Shown piece by piece: positions 10,604 through 50,479 of a DNA stretch of 50,479 nucleotides. A program made the position numbers and the translations under genes. This DNA comes from an uncultured Alcanivorax sp. (lineage in GTDB: Bacteria; Pseudomonadota; Gammaproteobacteria; Pseudomonadales; Alcanivoracaceae), in NCBI GenBank assembly GCA_913055795.1, contig CAJXLA010000007.1:1-50479 (forward strand), in the 5' to 3' direction. Within the stretch, counting starts at the first letter, position 1; each line of letters opens with the position of its first letter. The notes beneath the pieces were generated by a model that was not told the origin of the DNA, did no database searches, and saw only the letters and a program-made list of their open reading frames with translations.

Positions 10604-10677
10604 GCGGGTGTAGTTCAACGGTAGAACGTCAGCCTCCCACGCTGATAATGTGGGTTCGATTCCCATCACCCGCTCCA
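10604..10677 (+). tRNA. tRNA-Gly (CCC)
   Basis: A complete cloverleaf with encoded CCA. Acceptor GCGGGTG (10604-10610) pairs with CACCCGC (10667-10673), discriminator T, CCA at 10675-10677. The anticodon stem TCAGC/GCTGA encloses loop CTCCCAC, giving anticodon CCC. The T arm is GTGGG-TTCGATT-CCCAT. It is single, with the 3' end directly entering a long hairpin. Confidence 0.96.
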
Positions 10678-10717
10678 TTTTCCCCGGGGACCTCGCAGAG
10701 GTTCCCGGGGAAAATGG
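10675..10717 (+). terminator. 20-bp hairpin starting at the tRNA-Gly CCA
   Basis: Arms 10675-10694 and 10698-10717 pair over 20 positions with one G-T wobble and a GCA loop. No T-run follows the hairpin on the plus strand, but each arm holds a TTTT/AAAA end. The right arm, together with 10718-10725, is an inverted copy of the tRNA 3' end plus trailer (25 of 28 positions match 10667-10694), so the structure arose by inverted duplication of the tRNA tail. Confidence 0.7.
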
Positions 10718-10850
10718 ATGGGGTGGTGGCCCTGAATCAAAACCCATCGTTCGACGCCGGAGCACGGCTCTGGCGAACGTTAGCCGCAAGGCTGACGGTT
10801 CTTCGCCGCAGGCGAATAATGCGCAAGCACAACTCCCATCACCCGCTCCC
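10698..10850. repeat. tRNA-Gly 3'-end repeat unit
   Basis: On the minus strand this reads as an imperfect hairpin (CCAGAGC/GCTCCGG, near 10756-10775), then GTCGAAC (10755-10749), then ATGGGTT, then an inverted, slightly decayed copy of the tRNA-Gly 3' end (10725-10698). On the plus strand a direct 16-base copy of the tRNA tail, TCCCATCACCCGCTCC, lies at 10834-10849 (original at 10661-10676). Between them are short hairpins such as AGCC-GCAA-GGCT and TTCGCC-GCA-GGCGAA. No protein gene is supported between 10590 and 10900. Confidence 0.6.
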
Positions 10851-10900
10851 TTGCGAACGCTATCTCGTTCCAGCGGCGTACGAGCCAGGCGGGATCACGT

Positions 10901-33527: not shown

Positions 33528-34337
33528 CTCGCTGGTACACCCGATACTTACAAAAGAGGAGTCTTCGGAAGTTCAGTCATTGCGTTGTTTATCGGTGTCG
33601 TAGGGTGCGCTGTGCGCACCGTTCCAGCTCGGTGGAGTAGTTATCCGCCACACGAAGGTCCGGTCTTTGGCGGTTCCACCCGGCATTGAGCCGGGCGGAA
33701 CCGCGGGAGGATTACTCGGCCGCTAACGCGGCCTCGCCCTTCGGGCTGCCTAGCCTCGCGAGGCAATGCTGCGCGCCCGGGCGGGCGCTTGTGGCTCGCT
33801 AGCTGCGGCAGCTTCGCCGCCACCGCCCAATGCGTACATTGGGCGGTGGTCGAACGAGGGGTCTCCTTCGAACTCCCCGGTGCATCAGATATCCACAAGA
33901 AGGGAGCCTGTGGAGGTTCAGTCCCTTAAACTGCCGTGCGGTGCCGCAGGATGCGCCGTGCGCACCATTCCACTTTGGAGGTAAACCACCGCCGTCCAGA
34001 GTCGGACTTTGGCGGTTCCGCCCGGCATTGAGCCAGGCGGAACTGCGGGAGGATTGGCTCGTGGCCTATGGCCCCTCGCCGCCACCGCCCAATGCGGAAA
34101 TTGGGCGGTGGTCGAACGGGGGTTCTGCTTAGTAACGCCCCGGTGCACCAGATACCCACAAAAAAAGGGCCTGGCAGTGCGTCTTGCGCAGGTTTGGAGG
34201 CTGGGAACGCGGGAGGATTGACTCGCTGCCTGCGGCAGCTTCGTCGCCACCGCCCAATGCGTAAATTGGGCGGTGGTCGAACGAGGGGTTCTGCTTAACA
34301 GCTCCCCGGTGCACCAGATACCCACAAAAAAAGGGCC
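33528..34337 (+). repeat. array of tRNA-Arg 3'-end/terminator copies
   Basis: Four plus-strand copies of the tRNA-Arg tail plus terminator half-stem start at 33528 (heavily diverged), 33873 (a handful of changes), 34136 (one change in 36) and 34302 (identical to the tRNA tail read on the minus strand). Spacings are 345, 263 and 166 bases. The last three copies are preceded by a hairpin CCGCCCAAT-nnn-ATTGGGCGG and a GTCGAACG-GGGG box. Also repeated are GCGC/GCGC palindromes (33600-33626, 33946-33972) and a GCGGAAC-GCGGGAGGATT module (near 33690 and 34030). Short frames inside are not real genes. Confidence 0.8.
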
Positions 34338-34377
34338 TGGTGGCCCTTTTTTTGTGGGTATCTGGTGCACCGGGGAG
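34302..34377 (-). terminator. 36-bp perfect palindrome at the tRNA-Arg 3' end
   Basis: Arms 34302-34337 and 34342-34377 are perfectly complementary over 36 bases with a TGGT loop. The inner part (GGGCC plus a run of seven A/T) works as a terminator for the minus-strand tRNA-Arg and for plus-strand readthrough. The outer part is the tRNA acceptor end and CCA, present once in the gene and once inverted. Confidence 0.85.
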
Positions 34378-34439
34378 GATTCGAACCCCCGACCTTCTGG
34401 TTCGTAGCCAGATGCTCTATCCAACTGAGCTACCGGTGC
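34363..34439 (-). tRNA. tRNA-Arg (ACG)
   Basis: A complete cloverleaf on the minus strand: acceptor GCACCGG (from 34439) pairs with CCGGTGC, discriminator A and encoded CCA ending at 34363. Anticodon stem TCTGG/CCAGA with loop CTACGAA gives anticodon ACG (read as ICG). T arm GGGGGTTCGAATCCTCC. Confidence 0.97.
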
Positions 34440-49992: not shown

Positions 49993-50479
49993 TAGACATA
50001 AAAAAACCCGGCCAGGCGGGTTTTTTTTGTAGGGTGCGCCCGTGCGCACCTTTCCAGAGCCTTGGTGATCGATCAGCATGGAGGAATTGCCGGGTCTTGC
50101 CCCAATTCTGCGTTTTCCCGGGGCAAGTGATGGGGATTGCGAAGTCCATCTATGGACTTCGCCCTTCGGGCTGCGCCGGCTCGCGCCGGCTACGCGCCAA
50201 TTTGCTCCCGGCAAATGGGTCGAACAGAGGGTTCGAACCAAATACTCCCTCTCCGCCAGACATAAAAAAACCCGGGCTTGCCGGGTTTTTGTAGGGTGCG
50301 CCCGTGCGCACCTTTCCAAAGCCTTGGTGATCGATCGGTGGGGAGGGATTGCGCGCTCCTTCCCTGGAGCGCGTCCCTTCGGGACCCGCGCTTCGCGCGG
50401 TCCCAATTTGCTCCCGGCAAATGGGTCGAACAGAGGGTTCGAACCAAATACTCCCTCTCCGCCAGACATAAAAAAACCC
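49993..50479 (+). repeat. array of tRNA-Ser-like 3'-end/terminator copies, running off the right edge
   Basis: GACATAAAAAAACCC occurs at 49995, 50259 and 50465. The second and third copies are preceded by CTCTCCGCCA, which looks like the acceptor end of a tRNA-Ser; the first is decayed. Bases 50197-50273 and 50403-50479 are identical (77 bases). Each unit also has a GTAGGGTGCGC/GCGCACC palindrome (50029, 50291), short hairpins differing between units, an ATTTGC/GCAAAT hairpin and GGTCGAACAGAGGGTTC. No protein gene is supported in 49849-50479. Confidence 0.75.

Follow-up and report, generated by a model that had tools for sequence, protein, structure and literature searches.

The window (the whole stretch of 50,479 nucleotides from an uncultured Alcanivorax sp.) carries an intact tRNA-Gly(ccc) gene, which is followed by a long hairpin, a row of smaller hairpins and a direct copy of the tRNA 3' end (Table 1). 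The two arms of the long hairpin are complementary at 28/32 positions with a loop of 3 nt; the stem makes up most of this inverted repeat, and 12/15 positions are matched in the part within the tRNA (10663-10677). A sequence-only reading of the window had counted 25 of 28 matches for an inverted copy of the tRNA tail; the inverted repeat stands, whereas the figure mixes the stem with the tRNA tail. The same reading had held that the hairpin is no ordinary terminator, and we agree: the stem starts with TTTT and ends with AAAA, AAAATGG stands after it on both strands, and, when an intrinsic terminator was looked for, no U-run was found after the stem on either strand; therefore, the hairpin is not a canonical terminator. 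After the long hairpin and before the hairpin row (plus-strand reading), AACCCATCGTTCGAC is located at 10741-10755. The order of hairpin, GTCGAACGATGGGTT and tail copy that had been described for the minus strand is present there, and its GTCGAAC is the GTTCGAC joint of the unit on the plus strand.

The direct copy, reported earlier as 16 bases lying 173 bases downstream, was recovered exactly (t58-73 of the tRNA, 16/16 identical; start-to-start distance, 173). In 400 nt, the expected number of occurrences of a given 16-mer is about 1e-7, and the copy is far beyond chance. The downstream sequences were also compared with the tail of their own tRNA and with the tails of the other tRNAs (31 tRNA rows, each followed by 300 nt or more; 20,000 permutations). 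The own-tail means, for inverted and direct copies, exceeded 20,000/20,000 permutations, and the direct copy of tRNA-Gly ranked 1/31 (score 16; maximum of the other pairs, 11). The inverted copy of tRNA-Gly by itself was not above shuffles (19 vs 22) and was outside the best 16 of the 31 own-tail rows; its case thus rests on the shared architecture and position. The array region (10731-10856) folds with z = -2.6. The feature is best explained as a copied 3' part of the tRNA-Gly gene, with a structured hairpin array in its T-loop. This split of the direct tail copy, and the presence of the same parts in Escherichia coli tyrT, go beyond the sequence-only reading.

For the detection of units, a covariance model (R1) was built from 17 units of other genomes (alignment A2; 17/34 units, picked for alignability, with this genome and E. 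coli excluded). R1 found five units in the window (three Arg and two Ser-type). The Gly unit, which is single and not tandem, was matched at 10749-10822 with 16.4 bits, only in a focused, unfiltered search of 301 nt; by the R1 score it is a diverged member with a weak array match. The Ser-type units (50134-50479, minus strand) reach the end of the contig, and their tRNA (the inverted tail fits tRNA-Ser) is absent from the contig; contigs of relatives likewise stop at such places (G034:C4 and G039:C7).

Table 1. Coordinates of the tRNA genes, tail copies and hairpin arrays in the window
Feature	Position	Strand	Evidence
Intact tRNA-Gly(ccc)	10604..10677	+	ARAGORN; RF00005 72.4 bits
Long hairpin, from tRNA tail through stem into inverted tail copy	10663..10729	.	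Arms 10663-10694 / 10698-10729
GTTCGAC joint, where the T-loop of the split direct copy starts	10749..10755	+	Sequence; first model position of R1 match
Hairpin array of Gly unit, three clear stems and a short one	10755..10833	+	Fold; R1 alignment
Direct copy of tRNA-Gly 3' end (T-stem 3' strand + acceptor 3' strand)	10834..10852	+	18/19 (95%)
Third, longer Arg unit	33709..33855	-	R1 33.9 bits, E 4e-7
Second, tandem Arg unit	34051..34117	-	R1 27.9 bits, E 1.6e-5; inverted tail t65-77 at D213-225
First Arg unit (GTTCGA-array-AATCC)	34215..34282	-	R1 26.1 bits, E 5e-5
Intact tRNA-Arg(acg)	34363..34439	-	ARAGORN
Second Ser-type unit, tandem	50134..50225	-	R1 37.1 bits, E 6e-8
Ser-type unit, tRNA lost beyond contig end	50346..50431	-	R1 46.4 bits, E 2e-10; preceded by inverted tail GGCGGAGAGGGAG

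Split tRNA copies in the genome and its relatives

The unit consists of the inverted tRNA tail, GTTCGA, an array of about four hairpins, and ATCC leading into the direct tRNA tail. Its relation to the tRNA is most complete upstream of the intact tRNA-Ser(gga) gene on contig C132, where a near-complete second copy was found (t1-22 and t25-72 100% identical, with t72-83 next), with arrays in the D-loop after GGTCGA and in the T-loop after GGTTCGA. A copy of tRNA-Ser(cga) on contig C23 likewise has arrays in the D-loop and the T-loop. In another genome (locus L319), a copy of tRNA-Arg(cct) is split at the T-loop alone: it is identical through GGTTCGA, continues with an array and then with ATCCTGTCCGG, and is shortly followed by the intact gene. 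Because the near-complete Ser copies carry the arrays in their loops, the direct tails elsewhere are best read as tRNA tails split at the T-loop. An inverted duplication of the tRNA gene was rejected, as the minus-strand copy has neither the anticodon nor the D parts. Downstream of tRNA-Asn in L227, a degenerate tRNA-Asn copy appears, by eye, to have hairpins also in the anticodon and variable loops.

The genome has 34 tRNA genes by RF00005 and 34 rows by ARAGORN, in which the Trp gene appears twice (33 distinct). Units matching R1 adjoin eight intact tRNAs (Ser gga, cga and tga, Arg acg and ccg, Phe, Glu, and Tyr), and no unit above the R1 threshold was found beside the remaining tRNAs of the 33 distinct ones searched. 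Within 300 nt 3' of the tRNAs, the order of the parts is the same for Ser(gga), Ser(cga), Ser(tga), Arg(acg) and Arg(ccg), and variants are seen for Tyr, Glu and Phe, the Phe array being oriented the opposite way. Thus, the architecture that the sequence-only reading saw in common at tRNA-Gly and tRNA-Arg recurs at eight tRNAs besides the weak Gly unit; the likeness among the 3' flanks is not confined to the terminator, and its view of a recurring mechanism, not chance, is supported by a model trained on other genomes. A further R1 match was located 791 nt behind Leu(tag), within an rve transposase gene (L033:2376-2456, minus strand), where the array is not in one frame. A partial 5' copy of tRNA-Met (t1-35, 91%) was also noticed 133-99 nt upstream of tRNA-Met in L025, and the same was seen in G045 (97%).

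The units are present in some relatives and absent from others. Behind the tRNA-Gly(ccc) genes of five relatives (L038, L039, L042, L044 and L211), no unit was found within 120 nt or, for four of them, within 300 nt. Glu and Gly(gcc) are separated by 1 nt in G034, whereas in this genome their spacer holds a unit and measures 236 nt; by the tail test, G034 has units at 2/42 tRNAs (Ser gct and Ser gga). Local tandem growth was observed in G039, where Met, Thr and Pro have tandem, near-identical units. The repeats of G039 start with a tRNA 5' piece when upstream of the gene and end with a 3' piece when downstream; those upstream (L212, L256, L258 and L269) consist of a leader, the tRNA 5' piece and hairpins (Met t1-31 twice, Arg t1-19, and Ser t1-22 twice). 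The 5' pieces upstream of tRNAs in G039 and in this genome stop at various positions (t19, t22, t31 and t35). No insertion polymorphism was seen inside one species.

Conserved fold and distribution of the arrays

The four stems of the arrays are kept by compensating changes. In the alignment of 11 Ser-type arrays of this genome (A1; its Arg, Glu, Tyr, Phe and Gly arrays were left out), 13/27 pairs were changed on both sides, and 0/500 shuffles were as high. In A2, 19/25 pairs were changed on both sides, with 81 double vs 3 single changes (0/500 shuffles). In a count of 697 stem pairs, 29 were G-T; the rarity of wobble changes in A2 and of G-T pairs was counted for a constraint at the DNA level. 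GGA was found in 21/112 loops of the 34 units on one strand (the array plus strand) and in 0/112 on the other, and this bias may point to a role as RNA or to one that depends on the strand. The GGA loops resemble CsrA/RsmA sites; a CsrA sponge as the general role was rejected, as no GGA loops were found in the units of E. coli and several Alcanivoracaceae.

R1 matches all four repeats of E. coli (E 5e-7 to 6e-6). A search pattern derived from arrays of E. coli and Alcanivoracaceae (CCCGAAGGG, GAG, the length of a hairpin, and AATCC) matched 25/185 Gammaproteobacteria, with 0/185 for the reversed control, and 17/140 of a phylum sample (control, 0/140); the pattern demands AATCC on the right, so the conservation of the right flank in these matches is built in. 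Among the 30 Gammaproteobacteria loci fetched, 21 had an intact tRNA (Ser, Arg, Glu or Gln) at -500 to +600 nt, and the other 9/30 included some at contig ends and some that were chance- or coding-like. In the phylum sample, 9/19 loci were linked to a tRNA, several of them from family f219, outside Gammaproteobacteria. As judged from these matches, the units are found across Pseudomonadota, E. coli included. The exact motif CGAACCNNNCGTTCGAC, found in 8/46 genomes of the family, was rejected as too narrow a probe; when the order was searched with it and the related GAACCCNNCGTTCGAC (390 genomes), no tRNA was present at the 11 loci read from other families, which were coding-like.

The arrays also occur outside tRNA genes. 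A unit lies behind the tmRNA gene in G039 (L190:993-1546); a similar unit in L168 (G041) follows what looks like the 3' end of a tmRNA, though Rfam made no call there. Insertion inside open frames without destroying them was observed at two loci. In L338 (1452-1536), 75 nt of array between GGTTTGA and ATCCC add 25 residues, in frame and free of stops, to an hsdS gene (Methylase_S, E 1.5e-29), and in L318 an in-frame array of 72 nt lies in a reading frame with a weak match to a ParB-type helix-turn-helix (E 0.002, below cut-off). The hsdS site resembles a T-loop in a non-tRNA gene, so insertion is favoured over tRNA decay. In f219, R1 matched in 12/16 genomes, with up to 44 matches per genome. 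Of 42 R1 matches, 34 were inspected (four repeats of the same places and four further matches in L368 were left out): a tRNA lay within -700 to +900 nt for 14/34 and not for 20/34. All 7/7 flank-less matches, four of them tandem, have CA on the left instead of TTCGA, and therefore TTCGA is a preference and not a rule. Dispersed intergenic hairpin arrays with CCCCGAAGGGGTGAG and no tRNA nearby were noticed in G005 (loci in L167-L191), mostly below the R1 threshold, which 1/7 of the loci given reaches (E 0.04); an array restricted to tRNAs in all genera was rejected on account of these similar hairpins.

Known systems and origin of the units

The repeats at E. coli tyrT have been known for decades. 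In E. coli K-12, three of them lie behind tyrV and one between the tyrT and tyrV genes, and the Rfam model RtT (RF00391, RttR) finds all four. After the intact tRNA come the inverted tail (t56-77, 86%), AAGGTTCGA, which leads into hairpins (CCCGAAGGG among them), and last the direct tail (t67-85, 100%); the array thus lies between GGTTCGA and ATCC, and the repeats are tandem at 178 bp. The same succession, in which GGTTCGA and ATCC flank an array and the inverted tail precedes the direct one, was found here, the model match of the Gly array being weak, and the tandem units that mark RtT were found at Arg (34215, 34051 and 33709). In its architecture the finding thus belongs with RtT, though RF00391 gave no match to the Gly and Arg loci (L011 and L014) at E <= 5; its gathering score was reached by E. 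coli, L345 and L316. RtT is filed for one tRNA; the present units adjoin eight or more tRNAs within a single genome, extend to many isoacceptors and to tmRNA, and are also seen in D-loops and in protein genes. AaHKsRNA22 (RF02902, Aggregatibacter sRNA 22) matches the L168 array above the cut-off (44.8 vs 39.8), with L319 just below (35.8); it is named as an sRNA, and the name shows no link to tRNA copies. Matches of the sX4, miRNA and plastid families of Rfam were discarded as below cut-off and as effects of the long hairpins. Integron attC sites were rejected, as their core letters do not fit. The literature that was searched, largely outside subscription journals, held no description of hairpin inserts in T-loops.

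The accessible text on REP elements and TnpAREP describes cleavage at CA or CT beside the hairpin (PMC8266576). The present units share with REP the short palindromes, the stable stems, the dispersal, and the CA on the left of the flank-less copies. They differ from REP/TnpAREP (REPtrons) in the ordered four-hairpin cassette, in the apparent lack of a fixed GTAG tag (GTAG precedes some stems, e.g. in C132, but not most), in the preference for tRNA loops, and in the absence of the Y1 gene from two carriers. The Rickettsia palindromic elements, according to the accessible part of their description, are palindromic repeats of 100-150 bp inside frames that are not destroyed (PMC3767692), as is the hsdS insertion here; their sequences and hosts differ, and tRNA-loop targeting is not stated in that part of PMC3767692.

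The split copies, the T-loop-like target in hsdS, the dispersed copies, the covariation, the gain at Glu-Gly and the phylum-wide occurrence argue for insertion. The probable origin is thus, in our view, a widespread palindromic insertion element with a preference for tRNA and tmRNA T-loops, whose copies increase in number locally through tandem duplication. The element would be a small palindromic array of about 65-80 bp without a gene of its own, present across Pseudomonadota. In tRNA and tmRNA genes its entry point in the T-loop would follow GGTTCGA, and in D-loops GGTCGA or GGACGA; no duplication of the target is visible. It would at times use other sites as well, and even lie in frame within protein genes. 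Where an intact tRNA copy remains, the insertions would persist, and would then be multiplied as tandem units of 120-190 bp that stay matched to their own tRNA. We infer active mobility and a dedicated enzyme that would act on folded DNA. The inverted tail and the 5' pieces with their varying ends are not explained by simple insertion at one site, and the inverted tail may derive from template switching or from a second insertion end. Against an insertion element, no linked transposase was found, and PF01797 (Y1_Tnp), present in 36/45 genomes of the family, had 0 matches in this genome (G000, 86.7% complete), G045 and G039 (99% complete); G039 carries units nonetheless. More tentatively, and at somewhat less than even chances, the units may be phylum-wide cassettes without genes, recognised in folded, multi-hairpin form (probably as single-stranded DNA) and placed 3' of GGTTCGA in tRNA and tmRNA T-loops by a putative enzyme, with E. 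coli tyrT RtT as one fossil member.

The main rival to the insertion element is a role as processed RNA, which we regard as rather unlikely: the trailer would encode a structured RNA of the RtT/RttR type that is cut from tRNA transcripts, with its fold under selection and its GGA loops possibly titrating a protein, for instance CsrA/RsmA. The strong covariation of the stems, the restriction of GGA loops to one strand, the name small RNA RttR given to the repeat in the E. coli annotation, and the position of units inside likely tRNA operons here (Glu-Gly(gcc) and Tyr-Gly(tcc)) agree with such a role. However, a strong hairpin (A7-stem-T7) separates the tRNA from the unit at the Ser and Arg loci, arrays also lie in hsdS, in the ParB-like frame and in a transposase gene, and one-sided changes and G-T pairs are rare; in addition, the GGA loops are absent from the units named above. 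Still less probable is a by-product of replication with no element, in which template switching at the hairpins of tRNAs or terminators would produce the inverted tails and the hairpins, whose number would then rise by slippage. The extended palindrome (tail-stem-stem-tail) and the near-identical tandem units of G039 would fit it, but the letters and order of the array (CCCGAAGGG, YGAG, and the closing pair) are common to arrays across the phylum, a model trained elsewhere recovers the arrays, and the same array is found in genes. The T-loop is a known integrase position in tRNA genes, and the direct tail copies begin there; an origin as att repeats, left at tRNA 3' ends when a phage or an island integrated, is nevertheless very improbable, as no integrase gene lies between the repeats, for which the units of 100-190 bp are too small, the tail copy is interrupted, and inverted tails and D-loop inserts would be unexpected.

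The finding makes the curiosity at E. coli tyrT an instance of an object that recurs in genomes, in which at least two Rfam families filed separately (RtT and AaHKsRNA22) are united. The object accounts for odd partial tRNA copies and for contig breaks near tRNA genes, and the structural model is able to find further units and makes their origin testable.
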